Shown in pieces: positions 661-42,667 of a DNA stretch of 64,000 nt. The notes under the pieces were generated by a model. It was given only the letters and a program-made list of their open reading frames with translations, was not told the origin of the DNA and made no database searches. Source of the stretch: Bacteroidales bacterium (lineage in GTDB: Bacteria > Bacteroidota > Bacteroidia > Bacteroidales > F082); assembly GCA_017632935.1 (NCBI GenBank), contig JAGBQJ010000002.1:1-64000 (forward strand), read 5' to 3'. The position numbers and the translations under genes are program-made. Position 1 is the stretch's first letter. The number at the start of each line of letters is the position of its first letter.

Positions 661-1569
661 TTATTCGTTTTCGGGGGTGATGGCGTCGTAGATTTCGTGG
701 TAAGTAAAAGGTTTGCGTTGCACATCAGAGGCAAAGAAATAGCCGTAGCCGTTCTTGACATTGCCTCGCACGTTGCCCGAGATGGTGGCGAACAGACCCA
801 GGCTCCAGTCGTCTTCGTTGAAGACATCCAACAGGAAGGTGTAGAATTCGGGCGAGACAGAACAGGTGATGAAAGTCTCGCTTTGGTCGAGATGATCTTC
901 AGTGACATGATAGGAATACCAGAACAATCTGGCGGTGAACAGTGCCGAGAGCGACCTGTCGTTATGGACGAACGAAACACTTTCGATGCTGTCGATGGGG
1001 AAATCCTCCGGCTGTCGGAAGGTCAGGCCGCAAATAACAGGTTGTTCCCCAACGGTATAGATGTGTTTGTCAAACTGGAATTCATGCGCCATCTTGCCCG
1101 AGTGCATCTGATAACTCCTCACTTTTGTGTGGTCCTTGATGATTGGGAGGTAATCCGTGTCGCCCAAAGGGGTCAGATAGTCTTCGGCGGTGATGTCGCC
1201 CGTTGGTGTCTCAATGACAAGTTTGTAGGTCTTGCCCGTCTCACCCTTGAAAGGCTGCTCCGAAACAAAAACCATCTTGTTGCGGTCGGCTTCCTTTTCG
1301 ATATATGGAATGGTGTCGTTTCCGCAAAGCACGAAAACGCGGTTGATTTCGGGCAAAGTTGTTTGATTGTCGCCCCATTGATGCACGGGCGAAATGGTGA
1401 CGCGGTGCTGGCGCATCTCGGTGGTCACATTGCCAAACACGGCGACGGTGCCGTTCAAGACCTCGCCATCCGGCTGATTGAAACTGTTGATGTCAACTTC
1501 ATCGATTCTGCTGCAAGCGACTGACAGCATGACGATAGCCAACAATAATAAGGCTTTAAACTTTTTCAT
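661..1569 (-). CDS. DUF4249-type outer-membrane lipoprotein
   Basis: A 302-residue protein with a lipoprotein signal ending in MLSVACS (lipid-modified Cys at about residue 19), followed by a beta-rich domain. I read it as DUF4249 from its size, its GTVAVFGNVTTE-like start and its place directly before a TonB receptor gene (3-nt gap). Known DUF4249 proteins are receptor-associated surface lipoproteins of unknown ligand; a lid or accessory role is inference. A structured RNA on the same strand (1645-1896) lies about 75 nt upstream, so expression could be tied to it. No clear TAnnTTTG box lies between that RNA and the start. Confidence 0.8.
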   Translation of the reverse strand: MKKFKALLLLAIVMLSVACSRIDEVDINSFNQPDGEVLNGTVAVFGNVTTEMRQHRVTISPVHQWGDNQTTLPEINRVFVLCGNDTIPYIEKEADRNKMVFVSEQPFKGETGKTYKLVIETPTGDITAEDYLTPLGDTDYLPIIKDHTKVRSYQMHSGKMAHEFQFDKHIYTVGEQPVICGLTFRQPEDFPIDSIESVSFVHNDRSLSALFTARLFWYSYHVTEDHLDQSETFITCSVSPEFYTFLLDVFNEDDWSLGLFATISGNVRGNVKNGYGYFFASDVQRKPFTYHEIYDAITPENE

Positions 1570-1644
1570 TGTTTTGAGTTTTGGTTTGAAAATATAACAC
1601 TGTCTTGGGGTTATTATTGTCTTTCAGAGGCCAAAAAGACTTTT

Positions 1645-1896
1645 CTCATACAAGAAGCGTGGCCCTGCATGCTCACATCTTCAAGAGGAGGCCCTAGGAA
1701 AGCCTGAAACAACAAGATGCTTATTAGCAGTCCACGCTTAATGCGTTTGGAGCTGCTATGCTCGCATAAGTTATTTCTGTCTTTCTTTTCAGATCAACGA
1801 TGTCGCAACTGAAATTTCCTAGGTTCCCTCTTGCAACACGAAGCATAACGCTTCTTTCCTTGATGTCTTGGAATTGGGACTTTTTCATCTCAAAAC
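1645..1896 (-). ncRNA. Structured RNA element, copy A (novel family, 3 copies)
   Basis: No protein gene occupies this stretch. Reading on the minus strand, a TATTTTTG box (1903-1910) is followed by a 45-nt leader and then the element. The closing helix P1 pairs AAGAAGCGT (1856-1848) with ACGCTTCTT (1660-1652). The long helix P2 pairs CCTAGGAAA with TTTCCTAGG (1823-1815 with 1701-1693) and CAAGAGG with CCTCTTG (1833-1827 with 1688-1682). The apical part holds TAGCAG/CTGCTA and CTTAT/ATAAG pairs and the conserved CGCATTAAGCGTGGACTG. Copies B and C keep every helix with different bases. This copy has an extra insert of about 35 nt and a weak T-run. It lies upstream of the DUF4249 gene. Confidence 0.72.
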
Positions 1897-1952
1897 CGAA
1901 GGCAAAAATAGGGAAAAACGGGCAAACACAAGCCCTTTGACAAAAAAAAGCC

Positions 1953-3306: not shown

Positions 3307-4815
3307 TCAGTTGCAGCAGAGATCCAAATCAACAACTTTAGTTTCTGAAGCCTCCAAATGCACGGGGATCATCTCCGAGGAAAAGTCGTTCATATCGAAT
3401 TCATTGGCCTTTCGCTTGCCCATCAACACAAGGGCATCATGCGGAATCTTCACTTCCACGTCTCGACTTTCATTGCGGTTAAAATTCACGACAACCAACA
3501 GGCGTTCCGTCTCGGAATAGCGCAAAAAAGCATAGACAAACTGTGGGTCGAAATTCATGTACCATGGGTTGCACCACATCAGGTCGTAGAACTTGCCTTC
3601 AGTGATAGCGGAATGTTCTTGTCTGAAATGCAACAACTTACGGTAATAATCAAACAGTTTCTTCTGCGTCTCGTCAAATCCTCCGTCATCAAATTTACCG
3701 CCATTCATCCATTTTTGGTGCTGCGGCATGTGGCAATAATCGAAGATGGAGGTACGCCCGTCGTCGCCACTGTAACCTACTTCGCCCTCAGCGTTTTCCC
3801 CACTCTCCTGACCGTTGTACACCATAAACGGCCCCGTGTTCATCAAAGCGGAAAGCGACACGGCAGGCAGAGCGGCAAAGGCATCGCCCACAAACTGCGG
3901 TGAAGCCAGACGCTTCTCGTCGTGATTCTCCATGAAGCGCAGCATGTGCTCGTCCAAGTCGTGCAAATCCTTCCAAACTTGGCTGATTTCCTTCGCCTCG
4001 TGGCCCTCGCAAAGCACGCGCTCCAATGTGTTGTACAAACCCACCTTGTCATAAAGGTAATCGAAACCCGCATCCAAAAAAGGCTTGTAAAGGTCTGGCT
4101 GATAGATCTCCGCTATCATCAAAGGTTGATAGTCTTTTCTCAGATGCTCAATCACCCACTGCCAAAACGCCACTGGCACCATTTCGGCCATGTCGACACG
4201 GAAGCCATCGACATTTTTGCCACACCAAAAACGCAGGATTTTCAGCATCTTCTCCCAAGTATCGTGTTCGTCATAGTTCAACTTCACTGTGTCGTACCAG
4301 TCGTTGATGCTCGGATTGGGCGCAAACACATTGTTGCCCGTGGCCTTGGCAGGAAACTCCTCGTAGGGTTGCTCATCAATTCTTCTTGGCGAGACAAACG
4401 CCTGACCCTCACAATAATAAAAATTGCAAGGAGAAAAACCTTTGTTTTGCCGTGCCAAATGATTGGGAATGAAGTCGATAATCACCTTCATTCCTTTTTC
4501 ATGAATACGGTTAACCAAAGCCTCAAAATCGGCCATCGTGCCCAAATCAGGATCGACGGCATGGCAATCCGTGACGGCGTAGGGCGAGCCTGCGCGGCCT
4601 TTGGTGATGTCGGGATGTGTGCCCATGCTCTCGGAAGCATGCTCCAAAATGCCCGTTAACCAGATATGGGTGATGCCCAAATCCTTGATGGCCTCAAGGG
4701 CAATATCGTTAATATCGTGGAAGGTGCCACAGCCATTTTCGTCCTTGCTGCCGTTGAAGTGGAAGTCGGTTTGTTGGTTGCCAAACAGTCGAGGGAAAAG
4801 TTGATAGATGTTCAT
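3307..4815 (-). CDS. GH13 alpha-amylase family glycosidase
   Basis: A 502-residue TIM-barrel glycosidase with the GH13 signature: the region I-like IIDFIPNHLA, the nucleophile Asp in DGFRVDMAEM (about residue 208), the acid/base Glu in MIAEIYQP (about 235) and the third Asp in FMENHDEKR (about 295). The C-terminal 80 residues resemble the usual beta-sandwich domain C. There is no signal peptide, so it is probably cytoplasmic and acts on maltodextrin or a short alpha-glucan. It is convergent with nqrF (14-nt gap) and divergent from the fucosidase. The exact substrate is not visible. Confidence 0.9.
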   Translation of the reverse strand: MNIYQLFPRLFGNQQTDFHFNGSKDENGCGTFHDINDIALEAIKDLGITHIWLTGILEHASESMGTHPDITKGRAGSPYAVTDCHAVDPDLGTMADFEALVNRIHEKGMKVIIDFIPNHLARQNKGFSPCNFYYCEGQAFVSPRRIDEQPYEEFPAKATGNNVFAPNPSINDWYDTVKLNYDEHDTWEKMLKILRFWCGKNVDGFRVDMAEMVPVAFWQWVIEHLRKDYQPLMIAEIYQPDLYKPFLDAGFDYLYDKVGLYNTLERVLCEGHEAKEISQVWKDLHDLDEHMLRFMENHDEKRLASPQFVGDAFAALPAVSLSALMNTGPFMVYNGQESGENAEGEVGYSGDDGRTSIFDYCHMPQHQKWMNGGKFDDGGFDETQKKLFDYYRKLLHFRQEHSAITEGKFYDLMWCNPWYMNFDPQFVYAFLRYSETERLLVVVNFNRNESRDVEVKIPHDALVLMGKRKANEFDMNDFSSEMIPVHLEASETKVVDLDLCCN

Positions 4816-13378: not shown

Positions 13379-14749
13379 ATGAAACGAAGGATTGTTACAC
13401 TGTTTTTATCCCTGCTCTTCTTTTCGGTAAGCGCACAGAATGTGACGATTACCGGGCGGAGCAACAAGACCAACACGCTGATCAGGCTCTTCGTGTATGA
13501 AGACCTTGTCAACGAGACCGGCATTTTGCTCAACCAGAGCCAGACCGACGCCATGGGGCATTTCATCCTCGAAGGCAGCGTGAAACAAAACCTTCCCGCC
13601 CGCATCTATGTCGGCTTGGAGCCTGTCGACCTCATCCTCACGCCCAACGCTAACTACGACATCGAAATCATCGTGCCCGAGAAGAAGGACGATGTATCCT
13701 ATTTTGAAAAAGAGCTGCCCACCATCCGCGTGAAACGTGCCACCGACAAGGGCGTCTACCGACAGATCATCTATTCCGAGGAGATCATCAACGCCTACAT
13801 GACGGAGTACTTCAACCAGATCTACCGTGGCCGCCAGCTGCGCTATATCGACTCCATTCAGAACGCCATTAGCCGCGAGGTGCCCGACATCAAGTCGGAC
13901 TACGTGAAAAACCACAACCGTTATAAAATCGCTGCCATCAAGCTGGGCATCAGCAGCGACGGTGGCAGGAAAATCATCAAGGACTACTTCGAAGGACAGC
14001 CTGTGCTCTACACCCAAAGTGCTTATATCGACCTGTTCAAGGAACTGTTTGACGGCTACTTCAACAGTGCAGCTTACGACAACCATCTGCTCAACGACGC
14101 CTTTGACGAAGGTCCGGCAGCCCTCAAGAAATACCTGGCCACCGACCCGCTCATGGCCAACAACCCACAACTCGCCGAGCTCATCACCATCTATAACCTG
14201 CAGAAACTCTGCTATGGCGACCGCAACACGAGCCGTCTCGCCAAAAACCACCTGTATCATATCCAAAACCAAACGAAATACGACGAGCACAAGGCCATCA
14301 TCAGCGACTTTTTCTCGAAGTTCATTCATCTCACTCCTGGTTCGATAGCTACTGACTTCACCTTGAAAGACCGCAACGGCAAAGAAGTGCGACTTTTGGA
14401 TTACGAGGACCATTTGGTGCTACTGCAATTCGTCGACGGCATGTCGCCCGTCAGCGAGCGGCAGTTTGCGGAGCTGAGAAGCCTGCACAACCAATGGCAG
14501 GACTCGGTGCAGATCATCACCATCGCCCCCCACGACAAAATGGACTTCTTCAAGAAGCAGTTCGATGAGAAACGCCAGGACTGGCCCCTCCTCGACCTTG
14601 GCGACAACATCCTCCTCCTGGAGGCCTATAATGTGCGCACCTTCCCCGAGTACATCCTCATCACCAGGGGCAACAAAATCGGCGAAGCACCGGCACCCTC
14701 TCCAGAACGGTATTTGGAGGAAAGGGTGAGACGATTGTACGGGAAGTAA
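13379..14749 (+). CDS. Periplasmic thioredoxin-fold protein lacking the CXXC motif
   Basis: 456 residues with a signal peptide (MKRRIVTLFLSLLFFSVSAQ). An N-terminal beta domain (about 22-110, NVTITGRSNKTNTLIRL), a helical middle (about 130-320) and a C-terminal thioredoxin-like domain (about 325-456, GSIATDFTLKDRNGKEVRLL, VRTFPEYILITRGNKIGEAP) follow the layout of TlpA/ResA-like proteins of Bacteroidetes. Where CXXC should be, the sequence is QFVDGMSPVSERQ with no cysteine, so redox chemistry is unlikely. It may have become a binding or structural protein. The exact role is unknown. Confidence 0.75.
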   Translation: MKRRIVTLFLSLLFFSVSAQNVTITGRSNKTNTLIRLFVYEDLVNETGILLNQSQTDAMGHFILEGSVKQNLPARIYVGLEPVDLILTPNANYDIEIIVPEKKDDVSYFEKELPTIRVKRATDKGVYRQIIYSEEIINAYMTEYFNQIYRGRQLRYIDSIQNAISREVPDIKSDYVKNHNRYKIAAIKLGISSDGGRKIIKDYFEGQPVLYTQSAYIDLFKELFDGYFNSAAYDNHLLNDAFDEGPAALKKYLATDPLMANNPQLAELITIYNLQKLCYGDRNTSRLAKNHLYHIQNQTKYDEHKAIISDFFSKFIHLTPGSIATDFTLKDRNGKEVRLLDYEDHLVLLQFVDGMSPVSERQFAELRSLHNQWQDSVQIITIAPHDKMDFFKKQFDEKRQDWPLLDLGDNILLLEAYNVRTFPEYILITRGNKIGEAPAPSPERYLEERVRRLYGK

Positions 14750-14753
14750 AAAA

Positions 14754-14882
14754 CGGAAAAAGTCCCCTTTTTACCCCCTAAAACCATGGAATAATTCCCC
14801 TTTTTAGACTGAAAATTTCGGAAAAAATCCCATTTTTCTATGAAAATTTTCGGAAAAAGTCCCCTATTTTGATGAAACATTA
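14754..14882. repeat. Tandem array of four 32-33 bp units
   Basis: Units start at 14754, 14787, 14819 and 14851 and share a GGAAAAAGTCCCCTTTTT core followed by GAAAATTT-like sequence. They diverge by roughly 15-30%. There are no spacers, so this is a minisatellite rather than a CRISPR. On the minus strand a short frame through the array reads as repeated peptides (IFIEKWDFF, NRGLFPK), but it overlaps the upstream gene and has no promoter that I can see. Confidence 0.8.
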
Positions 14883-14943: not shown

Positions 14944-14951
14944 TATTTTTG
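14944..14951 (+). promoter_or_regulatory. -7 box TATTTTTG for RNA copy C
   Basis: It lies 46 nt before the closing helix of RNA copy C. Equivalent boxes lie 47 nt (copy A) and 33 nt (copy B) before theirs, on the RNA-sense strand. Confidence 0.6.
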
Positions 14952-14957
14952 CAGCGG

Positions 14958-15166
14958 TTCTTATGGTGGACTTTGTGCCGCCGACATATTTGAACACGAA
15001 GCGTTATGCTCGCCTTGTTGATGGAAACGTGAGAAATTTTCGCAGGCAAGTGAGTATAGTGGTTCGCGCGTTATGCGTGGGCTGTTATAGTTACATCTTC
15101 CTGCAAAGGTTTTTCTCACGACCTCCATCAAAAGATGTGGTATATCAGTGCCACGCTTCTTTTTGT
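14958..15166 (+). ncRNA. Structured RNA element, copy C (novel family, 3 copies)
   Basis: Leader of about 40 nt, then closing helix P1 (GAAGCGT 14998-15004 with ACGCTTC 15153-15159). P2 pairs TTGATGGA with TCCATCAA (15018-15025, 15124-15131) and CGTGAGAA with TTCTCACG (15028-15035, 15113-15120). The inner part pairs GCAGG with CCTGC and GTGAGTATA with TATAGTTAC. The conserved core GCGTTATGCGTGGGCTG carries GCGTGG (15075-15080), which can pair with CCACGC (15151-15156) in competition with P1. The 3' strand of P1 runs directly into TTTTT. The VanZ-like gene begins 66 nt later on the same strand. Confidence 0.72.
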
Positions 15167-15231
15167 ATGCAATATCCTTCGAGGTGCAGGGAGAATGTAA
15201 AACCATATCGGATTCTAGTGAATTATTTTAA

Positions 15232-15699
15232 ATGTTTAAAAATCAGCATATCAGCATTCTAAATCTTCGTTTTTGCAATTGGAAGCGGATAATAAAGGTC
15301 TTAATTGCGATCATTACGTTGTTTATTGGAGGTCTTATCTATGTCATATACAGAAGTAATGACTTACTAATGTTCAATTGGTTTAGTTGTTTGGGATTGA
15401 ATAGTGTTGTGATGCAGTTAAGAGACAGATTTAGTCATTTGATTCTTTCAGAATGGGTTAGGTATAATTTGCCAGCAGGATTATGGCTGTTTTCTTATAT
15501 GTTCATTATCGATTCTATTTGGAATGATAATAATGGTCCTATTTATAGATGTTTCATTATAATTCTTCCTTTGGTGTCTCTTACTTCGGAAATAATGCAA
15601 TTTTATAAGATTATGCCTGGAACATTCGATATTATTGATATAATTGGATATGTCCTTGCAATAATACTTTTTATAATCTTAAAACTAACAAGTAAATGA
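15232..15699 (+). CDS. VanZ-like small membrane protein
   Basis: 155 residues with about four membrane helices (about 20-40, 85-103, 108-125, 133-152). The segment SEIMQFYKIMPGTFDIIDII followed by GY has the spacing of the VanZ-like family (E..Q then D..N/G), so I place it there with caution. VanZ-like proteins are associated with glycopeptide resistance in some species, but most have no known role. Codon use is AT-rich, unlike neighbours, which suggests transfer. Its TGA overlaps the ATG of the next gene by 4 nt. RNA copy C lies just upstream. Confidence 0.5.
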   Translation: MFKNQHISILNLRFCNWKRIIKVLIAIITLFIGGLIYVIYRSNDLLMFNWFSCLGLNSVVMQLRDRFSHLILSEWVRYNLPAGLWLFSYMFIIDSIWNDNNGPIYRCFIIILPLVSLTSEIMQFYKIMPGTFDIIDIIGYVLAIILFIILKLTSK

Positions 15700-16421
15700 G
15701 AATAACAATTAAAAGTGTTTTGTCGGTATTTATATTAGTAGTATTTGCAATCATTGGAGCAGGCTCGAACGAAAGTATTACTACCCGATGGTGGATTATT
15801 GCAGTTTTTGTCATCCTTATCATCGTGGCTATAATCCTGACAACAAGACAAGAAGAAAAGGCAAAAATAGAAAGAAATAAAAGAAAAGAAAACAGGTTGG
15901 AAAGGCAGCAGCAAGAAGAAGCAGAGCTTCTAGCGATGTATAGATCCCAGAAACAGTCATTTTTGTTAGAAAATGGTATCCCTGACAAATCAATAATTTT
16001 GAAAAAAAACGAAATAGATTCTGAGATTCATGTATATGAAAGCAATAAAACCATTTTCATAATGGGCAAACGATATCAGTTTAAGGATATTCTATCATGT
16101 ACTATAGATGATAATCCGAGAACGATTAAAGGGAAAATTACAGCTATAAAAAAGTCTGACAATCGTAATGTAATAGGTCGATCAATTGTTGGAGGGGCGA
16201 TTGGCGGCTCAACAGGTGCAGTGATAGGAGGTGCAACAGCAAGGCAAAATATGGAGTTCGTGCAAGAAGATGACAAGTTCATTCACGATTATTCTATTAT
16301 TATTAGTGTAAACAGCATTTCAAATCCCATTATTCGTATTCATACCGAAGAAGATGCTGGACTGACTAATGAAATAGTCGGATTAATGAATGTTATAATT
16401 TCCAGAAACCAACAGCATTAG
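15696..16421 (+). CDS. Membrane protein with coiled coil and glycine zipper
   Basis: 241 residues. Two membrane helices (about 7-24 and 30-48) are followed by a charged coiled coil (QEEKAKIERNKRKENRLE, about 51-85), a beta domain (ESNKTIFIMGKRYQFKDI) and a glycine zipper (IGRSIVGGAIGGSTGAVIGG, about 162-181), then a beta C-terminus (ISNPIIRIHT). This resembles widespread uncharacterised proteins with a GG-rich hairpin between two beta segments. No function can be given. It is translationally coupled to the VanZ-like gene and shares its low GC. Confidence 0.6.
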   Translation: MRITIKSVLSVFILVVFAIIGAGSNESITTRWWIIAVFVILIIVAIILTTRQEEKAKIERNKRKENRLERQQQEEAELLAMYRSQKQSFLLENGIPDKSIILKKNEIDSEIHVYESNKTIFIMGKRYQFKDILSCTIDDNPRTIKGKITAIKKSDNRNVIGRSIVGGAIGGSTGAVIGGATARQNMEFVQEDDKFIHDYSIIISVNSISNPIIRIHTEEDAGLTNEIVGLMNVIISRNQQH

Positions 16422-16516: not shown

Positions 16517-16750
16517 CTACATCAACGCCGCATAATACACCGGCAAGCAAGTAACAACGCCATCTTTCTGATAGTCTTTGTCATAAAGCAGAATGCGTTC
16601 ACCTATATACGAAAGATGTTTCTTGCAGAACTCGTCCAAAGATTTATAGGTTTTGTAATTTGAGGCTTTTTTATTGTTGCGCCAAAGGAACGTTCCATTT
16701 TGCCATAGGCACAGCGTCTATTCTATAACCATCATTTTCTATGGTGAGCT
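16517..16750 (-). pseudogene. Remnant of a larger protein, perhaps an ATP-binding (DUF4143-like) C-terminus
   Basis: On the minus strand one frame reads ELTIENDGYRIDAVPMAK... to a stop. After a frame change it continues SNYKTYKSLDEFCKKHLSYI then GERILLYDKDYQKDGVV and LPVYYAALM followed by a stop. The end resembles the C-terminus of DUF4143-type AAA+ ATPases, but the match is weak. No start codon or ATPase motifs are present, so it is a decayed tail. The flanks (16422-16516 and 16751-16937) are AT-rich and I see no gene in them. Confidence 0.35.
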
Positions 16751-16945: not shown

Positions 16946-16978
16946 CACGAATTTTGCCCAAGGGCAAGCATTTAATTT

Positions 16979-17011
16979 TCAACTATCAATTATCAATTAT
17001 CAACTATAATT
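16979..17011. repeat. AT-rich heptad repeat before secA
   Basis: Tandem (TCAATTA) units in the secA leader. Similar heptads precede or separate other genes at 36052-36108, 36812-36873 and 54257-54300. Confidence 0.7.
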
Positions 17012-20409: not shown

Positions 20410-20793
20410 CTACTTCTTTTTCTTAGACGGCAAATCAACGACAAGTCCTCGTTCATCAACGCTAACACCTTTCGGCATGGGCAAAATAGAGAGGACAACA
20501 AATCCCATTCCAACCAAAGAAGAAACCATTCCGACTTTTTGCATGGATTCATTCGAACTTAGAAGTGTCATGCCTGTCCCAATGAGTTGTAAAGCACCAC
20601 CAACACTTATCATTGTCGCATTAGTGTTATAAGCCTGATTCAGTCTAGCCATTTCTGCATTAGTGTTTTGCAAACTGTGAAACATAATCGAAACGCTATC
20701 ATTAGGTATTTCTGTTTTGGTAACTGTTGGGGATTGCGCCTTAACCCCAAGGGCGACAGCCATCAAGACTGCAAAAACTACAAATTTGTTCAT
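20410..20793 (-). CDS. Small exported membrane protein of unknown function
   Basis: 127 residues: signal peptide (MNKFVVFAVLMAVALGVKAQ), a short helical linker, two hydrophobic helices (about 62-78 and 84-104) and a basic tail ending SKKKK. I do not recognise a family. It is alone on its strand, facing secA. A minus-strand TATGTTTG box (20828-20835) could be its own promoter; RNA copy B lies about 75 nt upstream on the same strand. Confidence 0.6.
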   Translation of the reverse strand: MNKFVVFAVLMAVALGVKAQSPTVTKTEIPNDSVSIMFHSLQNTNAEMARLNQAYNTNATMISVGGALQLIGTGMTLLSSNESMQKVGMVSSLVGMGFVVLSILPMPKGVSVDERGLVVDLPSKKKK

Positions 20794-20835: not shown

Positions 20836-20865
20836 TATATCCTTTCAGTTCCCAAAAGGAGTTAA

Positions 20866-21072
20866 ACGACAAAAAGAAGCGTGGAACTGTATGCCACATT
20901 CCTAAGTCGAAGGTCCTGAGAATACCTGCATAAAACGAACATGAGATAGCAGCCCACGCTAATGCGATAGCCACTATGCCTCTTGTTTTATGCTAAGTCA
21001 GCGAATTTCTCAGGTCCTCGACTTACAAGACAAGCATAACGCTTCTATATGACAGACTTGGCACGCCAAATC
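20866..21072 (-). ncRNA. Structured RNA element, copy B (novel family, 3 copies)
   Basis: On the minus strand a TATTTTTG box (21079-21086) precedes it. P1 pairs AGAAGCGT (21046-21039) with ACGCTTCT (20882-20875) and runs into TTTTT. P2 pairs CCTGAGAA with TTCTCAGG (21014-21007, 20922-20915) and TAAGTCGA with TCGACTTA (21025-21018, 20910-20903). P3 pairs GCATAAAAC with GTTTTATGC (20993-20985, 20936-20928). The core is CGCATTAGCGTGGGCTGCTA. A leader hairpin CCAAA/TTTGG lies near the 5' end. This is the cleanest of the three copies. Confidence 0.75.
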
Positions 21073-21127
21073 CTTTGGCAAAAATAGGAAAAAGCAGAAA
21101 CATACGAGTCATTTGAAGAAAAAAAAG

Positions 21128-21159: not shown

Positions 21160-21477
21160 ATGCCTGATAGCAACATTTTGAGCCGCATTCAATCGTTAGG
21201 CGAGGAAATAATCCCCGCTGGGGGGCACTTATATCTTTACGGATCAAGAGCCCGTGGCGACTTCCGTCCCGATTCCGATTGGGACTTGCTCATTCTGTTG
21301 GATAAAGACAAAGAAGAGTTTTCTGATTTCGACAACTTTTCCTACCCCTTTATCGAATTAGGTTACGACCTAAATACAACCATCTCCGCTCATCTTTACA
21401 CATTAGACAAATGGGCAGAAATGTCATTCTCAGTTTTTCACCACAATGTCGAACAGGATAAAATAGTTCTGGTATGA
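21160..21477 (+). CDS. MNT-family nucleotidyltransferase (antitoxin type)
   Basis: 105 residues with the minimal nucleotidyltransferase signature LYGSRARGDFRPDSDWDLLI (about residues 26-45), including GS and D.D. In MNT-HEPN modules the MNT partner neutralises the HEPN toxin, in studied cases by adenylylating it. The stop overlaps the next ATG (ATGA). The pair has its own promoter and stands alone between RNA copy B and pyrH. Confidence 0.88.
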   Translation: MPDSNILSRIQSLGEEIIPAGGHLYLYGSRARGDFRPDSDWDLLILLDKDKEEFSDFDNFSYPFIELGYDLNTTISAHLYTLDKWAEMSFSVFHHNVEQDKIVLV

Positions 21478-21884
21478 GCCTCAATGACGAAGAAAGAACA
21501 CTTTTAGTGGAATTTGAAATCGAAAAAGCCCACAAACTGATAGACCAGTTTTCAATACTTGAAAATGCTGAGTTATGGGACACATTAGCCAACCGCGTTT
21601 ATTATGCAGTGTTTCATGCCGTCACAGCCTTGCTGATTAAAAACGGTCTCCATGCGGGTTCTCATCAAGGTGTATCAGTGCTTTTCAACAAGCATTTCGT
21701 GAAAGAGAACCTTATTGACGAAAAATACGGTCGATTATTGGCTCGCCTAGAAAACATGCGTGAAAAGAGTGATTATACCTGCCTTTTTGAGACCACTGAG
21801 GATGAAGTATTACCCATGATTCCTCAAGCCAAAGAGATGGTTTCAATGATTGATAACCTAATTAAGCCAGAAACAAACTCTTGA
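21474..21884 (+). CDS. HEPN-domain protein (toxin type)
   Basis: 136 residues, all helical. The HEPN pattern is visible in LANRVYYAVFHAVTALLI, then GSHQGVSVLFNKHFVKE and NMREKSDYTC. HEPN partners of MNT proteins are usually RNases that act in stress or phage defence. Translationally coupled to the MNT gene. Whether the pair is active here cannot be judged from sequence. Confidence 0.87.
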   Translation: MSLNDEERTLLVEFEIEKAHKLIDQFSILENAELWDTLANRVYYAVFHAVTALLIKNGLHAGSHQGVSVLFNKHFVKENLIDEKYGRLLARLENMREKSDYTCLFETTEDEVLPMIPQAKEMVSMIDNLIKPETNS

Positions 21885-41698: not shown

Positions 41699-41758
41699 CA
41701 GCACTAGAACCCGCCAAGCCTCTCAACGATGCTCAAATGTGCGGGTCGTTTTATTTTT

Positions 41759-42667
41759 ATGCCTATGGCTAATCGAATCCCTTTTCACAAAACATATACC
41801 AACGCACATGACCTCGTAAACTTGTTGCAGTCTAGAGGTCTTGCTGTTGCAGATCCGACAAAAGCTGAGCAATATATTGAATATATTGGCTACTATCGCT
41901 TATCGGCCTACATGTACCCTTTGCTTCAGATGCCAAAGGAACAGCACCAATACAAGCAGGGAGCCACATTCAGCCAGGTGATGACACTCTACCGTTTCGA
42001 CAAGAAATTGCGATTGTTTATATTCAACGAGATTGAGAAAATCGAGGTGGCAGTGCGCAGCGCCATCGTCAACACTGGCAGCGAACTGACGGGCAATCCA
42101 TTCTGGATGACTGATGGAGCCAACTTCACCAATCACAGCAAGTTTTTACATACGATGTCGCTGATAGACGCTGAAATCAACCGTTCTCGGGAAGATTTCA
42201 TCGTCCACTTCAAGCAGACCTATTCTGATGCCTATCCGCCTGCGTGGATCTTGGCCGAGGTGTTGCCATTTGGTGTGATGACCAACATTTATAGCAATAT
42301 CAAAGCGCCTCGTATAAAGAAAAGCATTGCACACAAATTCGGCTTACAGGTGGCACCTTTCGAGTCGTGGCTCACCATCGTCACACTGACACGCAACTCA
42401 TGTTGCCATCATGCCCGAGTATGGAACAAACAGAACACCATCCGCCCAATGATGCCTAACCGAATGAGCGGTGCTTGGTTGACTTTGACCACCGACCCAT
42501 TGCGCATTTATTTCAATCTGTGCATCATCAAGTATTTCCTTGATGTTATTTCGCCTCAGAACGACATGCGCGATAAACTGCTTCGGTTGCTTGCTGACTA
42601 CCCATCCATTGACCTCAATGCCATGGGCTTCCCTCAAGCCTGGCAGCAGGAACCATTGTGGCAATGA
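41759..42667 (+). CDS. Abi_2 (AbiD/AbiF-like) abortive-infection protein
   Basis: About 302 residues. Family blocks: IPFHKTYTNAHDLVNLLQSR then GLAV, YIEYIGYYRLSAYMYPLL, YRFDKKLRLFIFNEIEKIEV and the HEPN-type TRNSCCHHARVWN (RN...H) near residue 218. Abi_2 proteins block phage growth and are distantly related to HEPN RNases. Starts at 41729, 41759 and 41765 are all possible; 41759 or 41765 fits the family. It stands next to HicAB in a likely defence cluster, and its end runs into REP palindromes. Confidence 0.87.
   Translation: MPMANRIPFHKTYTNAHDLVNLLQSRGLAVADPTKAEQYIEYIGYYRLSAYMYPLLQMPKEQHQYKQGATFSQVMTLYRFDKKLRLFIFNEIEKIEVAVRSAIVNTGSELTGNPFWMTDGANFTNHSKFLHTMSLIDAEINRSREDFIVHFKQTYSDAYPPAWILAEVLPFGVMTNIYSNIKAPRIKKSIAHKFGLQVAPFESWLTIVTLTRNSCCHHARVWNKQNTIRPMMPNRMSGAWLTLTTDPLRIYFNLCIIKYFLDVISPQNDMRDKLLRLLADYPSIDLNAMGFPQAWQQEPLWQ

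Follow-up and report, generated by a model that had tools for sequence, protein, structure and literature searches.

A covarying, pseudoknotted RNA family in front of unrelated Bacteroidales genes, a candidate 5′ leader

What does a folded RNA do that recurs, in several copies per genome, in front of unrelated genes? The question is raised by a 64,000-nucleotide (nt) stretch of a Bacteroidales bacterium (assembly GCA_017632935.1, contig JAGBQJ010000002.1, positions 1 to 64,000; hereafter the window), which carries three copies, A, B and C, of one RNA element, each about 165-200 nt long. An original prediction, made from the letters of the window, had placed them at 1645-1896 (-), 14958-15166 (+) and 20866-21072 (-) and proposed a structured, covarying RNA of unassigned family, present many times per genome. 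The three elements are found at these positions and on these strands. They belong to a folded RNA of ~170 bases for which no match was found among catalogued families and which stands at the front of many unrelated Bacteroidales genes, most of them for proteins that look exported. This RNA probably controls the expression of the genes behind it, and we give about even chances to the more specific proposal that it would act in cis, as a 5′ leader, on translation initiation.

A multicopy RNA family

The motifs GAAGCGTTATGC, GCGTGGRCTG, ATGTG and CCACGCTTC, by which the copies had been recognized, are present in all three. Taken singly they are within chance, CCACGCTTC with one mismatch occurring 22 times against 17 expected and GCGTGGRCTG with one mismatch 11 times against 8; their significance is in their joint arrangement. 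None of 200 dinucleotide shuffles folds better than the native copies (z = -4.6 for A, -4.1 for B and -5.3 for C). The helix arms quoted in the prediction are correct in sequence, with the labels of B and C interchanged: TTGATGGA/TCCATCAA with CGTGAGAA/TTCTCACG belong to the copy at 14958 (+), that is B, and TAAGTCGA/TCGACTTA with CCTGAGAA/TTCTCAGG to the copy at 20866 (-), that is C.

A pattern search of the bacterium's own 2.86 Mb genome returned six exact 5′ motifs, every one in a full element and three of them in the window. The covariance model built from these six copies (R1) scores them at 132-153 bits, with extra copies scoring lower, and a second model, built from 100 copies (R2), finds 18 copies at E ≤ 0.1, the weakest at 1.1e-6. 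The genome thus holds six strong and 12 divergent copies, in line with the expectation of many per genome. Such models had been suggested as a check, and searches of this and other Bacteroidales genomes with them recovered further copies. R1 matches 42 of 60 sampled genomes (its own included) at E ≤ 0.01, in 8 of 25 genera, and R2 matches 53 of 148 genomes of the order at E ≤ 1e-4, in 47 of 127 genera, with at most 18 copies each; because searches over more than 40 genomes used stricter filters, these genome counts are lower bounds. Across the phylum, R2 matches 12 of 198 genomes, namely its own and 11 others marked as the same class, the class being known for part of the matchless genomes, 166 of which carry no listing. 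A pattern scan of named genomes gave at least 117 stretches with the element; among the 80 listed are stretches of Bacteroides gallinarum, Phocaeicola coprophilus, Parabacteroides faecis, Butyricimonas synergistica and Alistipes. The element is also present on six stretches of viral contigs. For the family-wide counts below, 158 loci yielded 139 distinct copies by exact pattern, and removal of one containing N and of 24 near-identical ones left 114 non-redundant copies. Since selection was by exact pattern, divergent types are under-represented among the 114.

A scan of the window and 19 copy-bearing loci, divergent ones included, against Rfam 15 at gathering thresholds gave no match at any element, which agrees with the prediction's failure to assign a family; the matches obtained (tRNA, abiF, 5S rRNA and FopS) all lie away from the elements. 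The Rfam copy was recent enough to include the FopS family of Bacteroides. An E-value scan of the copy B stretch gave three hits, all far below gathering scores, and an E-value scan of two further loci gave nothing. The accessible portions of open-licence papers, supplementary tables aside, nowhere describe the motif, and no paper in the open-licence literature has both Bacteroidales and the 12-base motif together. The terms Bacteroid, Prevotella and Flavobacter are absent from two noncoding RNA surveys, which were consulted by term only.

Covarying helices and the proposed fold

Compensation in every helix had been claimed from three copies, an overstatement at that number, P1 being identical in all of them; across 100 aligned copies most pairs are compensated. 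In this alignment, 96.6% of the rod-structure cells pair and 34 of 40 pairs have changed on both sides. Neither value is attained in any of 500 shuffles, and sliding the partner leaves 12-18 pairs with a double change. Together with the shuffled folds and the genome searches, the alignment supports the interpretation as a structured, covarying, multicopy RNA. Having been fitted to the rod structure, it leans towards the rod. An alignment-free test scored each strand against its own and against swapped partners. Own strands pair better than swapped ones (energies, negative being better) in P2 (z = -37), P4 (z = -25), the pseudoknot (z = -10) and P5 (z = -5).

The single rod-like hairpin of the prediction is part of the structure and incomplete, because further, crossing helices covary: covariation is found in P2, P4 and the kissing helix and in three helices not named there. 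The c/m pairing expected of an extended rod fails to covary in either copy set. We therefore propose two helices instead, scored in 111 copies after three of the 114 that have no P2 or P4 helix were excluded: c/g, in which UCUUG 5′ of P2 pairs with CAAGA 3′ of the P4 5′ strand (z = 7.5; here and below, positive is better), and j/m, in which ACAUCUU before the P4 3′ strand pairs with AAGAUGU after P2 (z = 6.9). The controls c/m, c/j and g/m show no covariation (z = -2.4, 1.1 and -0.6). A separate set of 28 divergent copies, which shares no member with the 114, gives z = 4.4 for c/g and z = 5.1 for j/m, each with 0 of 10,000 permutations; some of these helices are 8-10 pairs long. Around the 5′ kissing loop, the variable part of the short stem Ha (GAAA/UUUC) covaries (z = 10.9); for Hb (AGGU/ACCU), the variants AGGC/GCCU and UGGU/ACCA were found by eye. 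P5 contains conserved G-U pairs, with U-G in 92 of 100 copies at one pair.

The boundaries first given to the element are too short, as they leave out a 3′ hairpin pseudoknotted to the core. The loop of this hairpin pairs perfectly over 7 nt with a core strand of the CAGUUCC type in 62 of 114 copies, whereas 50 rounds with swapped partners gave 26.7 such copies on average and 34 at most; examples are CAGUUCC/GGAACUG, CAGAGCC/GGCUCUG and CAGUCUC/GAGGCUG. The hairpin stem also prefers its own partner (mean 5.3 versus 3.9 swapped, 0 of 200 rounds reaching the own value). From these pairings, a four-way junction with few linker bases, or none, would connect P2 to P4 at each end. The overlaps at the junctions would also permit the RNA to switch between the rod and a form with two kissing hairpins.

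Position before genes and rival readings

The prediction treated the element as a free-standing RNA; it is better read as the 5′ leader of the next gene. The sequence TAnnTTTG, which we take to be the Bacteroidetes promoter box, lies at most 90 nt upstream in 104 of the 114 copies, versus 8 expected from shuffles, and 41-48 nt before the core in 61 of those 104. On the other side, an open reading frame (ORF) starts 23-159 nt downstream of the core in 108 of 114 copies (median 55; searched range 20-160 nt). The same rule is satisfied on 103 of 106 downstream sides versus 39 of 106 divergent sides, and upstream neighbors have no fixed orientation (48 + versus 37 -, n = 85). Because random positions often satisfy this rule too, the presence of an ORF is by itself weak evidence, and the spacing is better. 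Among 90 scored copies (after exclusion of six that have no ORF and 18 that have at most five of the seven pseudoknot pairs), the pseudoknot loop lies 15-29 nt before the AUG in 65. A second group of 16 has 40-49 nt to the start codon, and three of its members (L088, L100 and L110) bear an extra block resembling GUUGCGCCCGACAC. In Bacteroides thetaiotaomicron, the most frequent 5′ untranslated region length is 23 nt, according to the accessible part of PMC7366714.

The family, the covariation of its single helices, the promoter-like box, the gene position and the spacing are read in the sequence, whereas transcription, the coexistence of all helices, translation as the controlled step, the direction of regulation and any ligand or protein partner are inferred. 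Transcription would start just behind the TAnnTTTG box and yield, in order, a 5′ hairpin, a core of ~165 nt, a 3′ hairpin and the gene. P2 and P4 would meet at an inner four-way junction whose short arms, Ha and Hb, carry complementary kissing loops (e/e′), while c/g and j/m would link the other ends of P2 and P4 into a second, outer junction, giving a knotted, compact fold. Through the pseudoknot the core would be tied to the 3′ hairpin, which keeps a near-fixed distance (median 23 nt) from the start codon that follows, and the fold, or a switch to the rod-like alternative, could set ribosome access to the initiation region. Control of translation initiation is favored because of the location, the pseudoknot and this near-fixed distance.

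Several points weigh against the leader reading or the fold attached to it. At random positions of the same loci, the ORF rule is satisfied in 1128 of 2120 trials, and 18 of the 108 ORF-bearing copies, with at most five of the seven pseudoknot pairs, fall outside the spacing score. The putative leader status rests on position and covariation, and a fixed spacing would equally be expected of a processing or stability element. Within the fold, Hb is near constant (z = 1.6); the control g/j is also positive (z = 2.6 in the 111 copies, z = 3.2 in the 28 divergent ones), probably from P4 extension; and the wide spread of P4 lengths (5-10 pairs in 103 of 111) agrees poorly with a rigid double junction. 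The z-score of e/e′ for its own partner is biased because the pair was picked by complementarity, and all permutation z-scores ignore phylogeny and are hence inflated by relatedness. Finally, 56 of 114 copies have four U residues no more than 14 nt from the core end, and 23 of 26 divergent copies have them at or just behind it (L204 and L206 of the 28 left out).

This U run behind P1 makes attenuation a serious rival, if a rather improbable one. P1 (GAAGCGU/ACGCUUC) and the U residues would form an intrinsic terminator with the entire core as its loop, and folding would choose between stop and run-through. Such a run is absent from 58 of the 114 copies, however, and the pseudoknot covaries beyond it, so that the functional RNA extends past the U run; nor would an attenuator need to keep its distance from the start codon nearly constant. 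The U run is far more regular in divergent copies (L199-L210, L188-L198, L060-L064) than in the 114 class-I copies, so that attenuation may be how the divergent types work. The U run in part of the copies would also suit free-standing genes for trans-acting small RNAs (sRNAs), with their own promoter and terminator and with a next gene that is incidental or has its own promoter. The promoter box, the compact fold and the several copies per genome agree with this, and multicopy families such as FopS exist in Bacteroides (PMC11697453, in the part accessible). We consider a standalone sRNA unlikely and set it aside: the pseudoknot and the near-fixed spacing run into the next gene and its start, and an ORF follows on the same strand in 103 of 106 cases.

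A knotted leader that shields mRNAs from 5′ decay, sensing nothing, would accommodate the unrelated downstream genes (80 clusters in 108), which are unlike a metabolite-specific regulon; by itself such a 5′ stabilizer has no need for a pseudoknot with a defined spacing to the start codon, and we regard it as slightly less probable still than the sRNA. Very improbable, and the least favored of all, is a DNA-level element, either a recombination site or the end of a mobile cassette, folding as single-stranded DNA. It would fit the accessory setting of copy B, in a variable stretch that has a thioredoxin-family gene on one side and secA on the other and is nearly empty in genome G021, as well as two plasmid copies directly before cargo genes and the homology break just before the promoter box of copy A. 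Against it, the junctions at B, the one locus examined, look decayed and have no sharp boundary, the promoter-like box lies outside the fold, and the conserved G-U pairs of P5 (92 of 100 at one pair) argue for RNA. An attC-like DNA site was set aside on account of the G-U pairs and of the missing sharp joint at B, the sole locus examined.

Genes, accessory setting and known systems

The 108 downstream proteins fall into 80 clusters, 66 of them singletons, and the largest cluster comprises 11 small exported-looking proteins, several starting TKFLGIPVDG-like. Pfam families each cover at most 3 of the 108 (among the families listed, 25 of 44), and family and defence-system scans found no shared function (families listed: 25 of 44, 9 of 9 and 25 of 68); matches included HxsD-like in three proteins, PorV in two, and DarT and HSDR-like in one each. 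By a crude hydrophobic-core rule, 78 of 108 downstream proteins look exported versus 23 of 78 upstream ones (Fisher p = 9e-9; 7 of the 85 upstream genes, without an initial M, excluded). The 85 upstream genes are a mixture that includes SecA, amino acid kinases and, in two cases, a plasmid mobilization enzyme, and no reverse transcriptase (RT) appears (Pfam scan only; all among the families listed, 25 of 99). RT-protease models, which would point to a retron, match 1 of the 108 downstream proteins. Divergent copies in the bacterium's own genome precede small helix-turn-helix-like and exported-looking proteins, as judged by reading. Of the marks of a riboswitch, a place in the 5′ leader of a regulated gene is seen, by position only, and functionally coherent downstream genes are not. 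A bolder proposal, possible but more doubtful than the leader reading, is that this double-junction, kissing-loop, pseudoknot RNA may be a portable general expression leader in the class Bacteroidia, serving accessory genes and genes for exported proteins, through which up to about 18 unrelated genes per genome would obey one RNA-sensed signal.

The variable stretch around copy B holds other cargo in genomes G029 and G031. Its junctions are unsharp, so that the element seems to travel as one part of a gene unit and not to be mobile in its own right. At copy A, homology to G002 and G018 covers the element, its promoter box and its gene and ends at 1918, 8 bases upstream of the box. In one G018 locus (L231, G018:C48, ~609-770), the box, the first part of the core and the gene are kept and window positions 1643-1813 are missing, a gap that covers 161 of the 202 core positions of copy A and may reflect either a true deletion or faulty assembly. 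A search with the L104 copy as DNA query found seven plasmid records and one phage record. In the six plasmid records inspected, two copies directly precede a named gene (a DUF4433 gene, presumably DarT, and a class A beta-lactamase gene), one precedes a hypothetical gene whose start the match overlaps, one has its next annotated gene 381 nt away, and two have no annotation there. A further copy (L257, G371:C27) sits just behind tyrosine-recombinase-like and excisionase-like ORFs and before an exported-looking protein, by reading. In some genomes of the order, several copies (L247-L258) are no more than a few hundred bases away from a contig end, a hint that repeats adjoin them. Coordinates of the window copies and their genes are collected in Table 1.

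Table 1. Parts of the three element copies in the window and the genes behind them
Feature	Position	Strand	Basis or remark
Copy A core RNA	1653-1854	-	R2 117.9 bits; longer insertion before P4
Copy B core RNA (P1, P2, kissing helix, P4-P6)	14998-15160	+	R1 153.1 bits, R2 147.8 bits; covariation
Copy C core RNA	20875-21045	-	R2 127.0 bits
Putative promoter -7 box TATTTTTG, copy B	14944-14951	+	Read from sequence; family-wide TAnnTTTG count
Putative promoter -7 box TATTTTTG, copy A	1903-1910	-	Read from sequence
Putative promoter -7 box TATTTTTG, copy C	21079-21086	-	Read from sequence
5′ hairpin region, copy B (approximate)	14954-14997	+	Inspection, including upstream sequences of other copies
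Pseudoknot strand CAGUGCC, copy B	15146-15152	+	Inspection; tested family-wide
3′ hairpin, copy B (approximate)	15173-15195	+	Inspection; tested family-wide
Pseudoknot loop GGUGCAG, copy B	15183-15189	+	6/7 pairs; inspection
3′ hairpin, copy A	1619-1640	-	Loop GGCCUCUG pairs with CAGGGCC, one bulge; inspection
3′ hairpin, copy C	20840-20860	-	Loop GGAACUG/CAGUUCC, perfect pairing; inspection; tested family-wide
Gene behind copy A	661-1569	-	DUF4249; lipoprotein-like by reading
First gene behind copy B	15232-15699	+	155 aa; no Pfam match
Second ORF behind copy B	15696-16421	+	241 aa; no Pfam match
Gene behind copy C	20410-20793	-	127 aa; exported-looking by reading; no Pfam match

The window has other features as well. 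Repeated intergenic stretches at 14749-14871, with internal repeats like GGAAAAAGTCCC, and at 16518-16658 recur in other genomes of the genus, where the cargo next to them differs. Stretches of ~30 bases at 16974-17003 and 2825-2860 have many near-identical matches across the genus and may be promoter-like or of low complexity. Divergent from copy C, ORFs with nucleotidyltransferase and HEPN domains overlap head to tail at 21160-21884 (+) and resemble a toxin-antitoxin pair. An abiF RNA (RF03085, 58.5 bits) at 41710-41746 (+) lies at the start of an Abi_2-domain ORF (41729-42667, +), a known defence-like RNA/protein pair.

HEARO/omega RNA, at about 200 nt and several copies per genome, invites comparison; the element shows no Rfam match to it at the elements scanned, and its downstream genes are diverse. 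Bacteroidales-1 (RF01693), 6S-Flavo (RF01685) and Flavo-1 (RF01705) are likewise Bacteroidetes RNAs, as described in the accessible part of PMC2864571, and none has a gathering match at the elements scanned, where 6S RNA is thus not indicated. The FopS (RF04319) and GibS sRNAs of Bacteroides are also multicopy RNA families of the same order; unlike the element, the FopS model has 71 positions, with a single-stranded 5′ stretch and a terminator hairpin (PMC11697453, accessible part). RF04319 matches elsewhere in one Bacteroides muris locus (L089) and not at its element: the FopS sRNA there, at 4662-4728, lies ~430 nt before the element copy. FopS, along with Bacteroidales-1, 6S and HEARO, which the prediction had named for comparison, was set aside, as none matches by Rfam at the elements scanned. 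The HMP2 human microbiome survey (PMC8040213, apart from its supplementary tables) includes motifs from Bacteroidetes as well as motifs found ahead of HTH_XRE genes, much as some divergent copies precede small helix-turn-helix-like proteins, by reading. Its motifs with lengths given span 38-132 bp, unlike the element, a fragment of which may be among them.

If the leader reading is true, Bacteroidales would have in this element a widespread orphan leader RNA on accessory genes, among them genes for defence-like, plasmid-borne and exported proteins. Its phylum is described, in the accessible part of PMC3155529, as generally lacking Shine-Dalgarno sequences, and a knotted RNA at a near-fixed distance from the start codon would open the control of translation initiation in Bacteroidetes to direct tests. 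RNA structural biology would have an interest in the proposed double-junction fold as well. From orphan riboswitch candidates the element differs in its long, knotted core and in downstream genes without a visible common pathway; with them, and with cis-acting leaders, it shares the 5′ leader position, a covarying core, a pseudoknot, several copies per genome and alternative pairings of the same strands.
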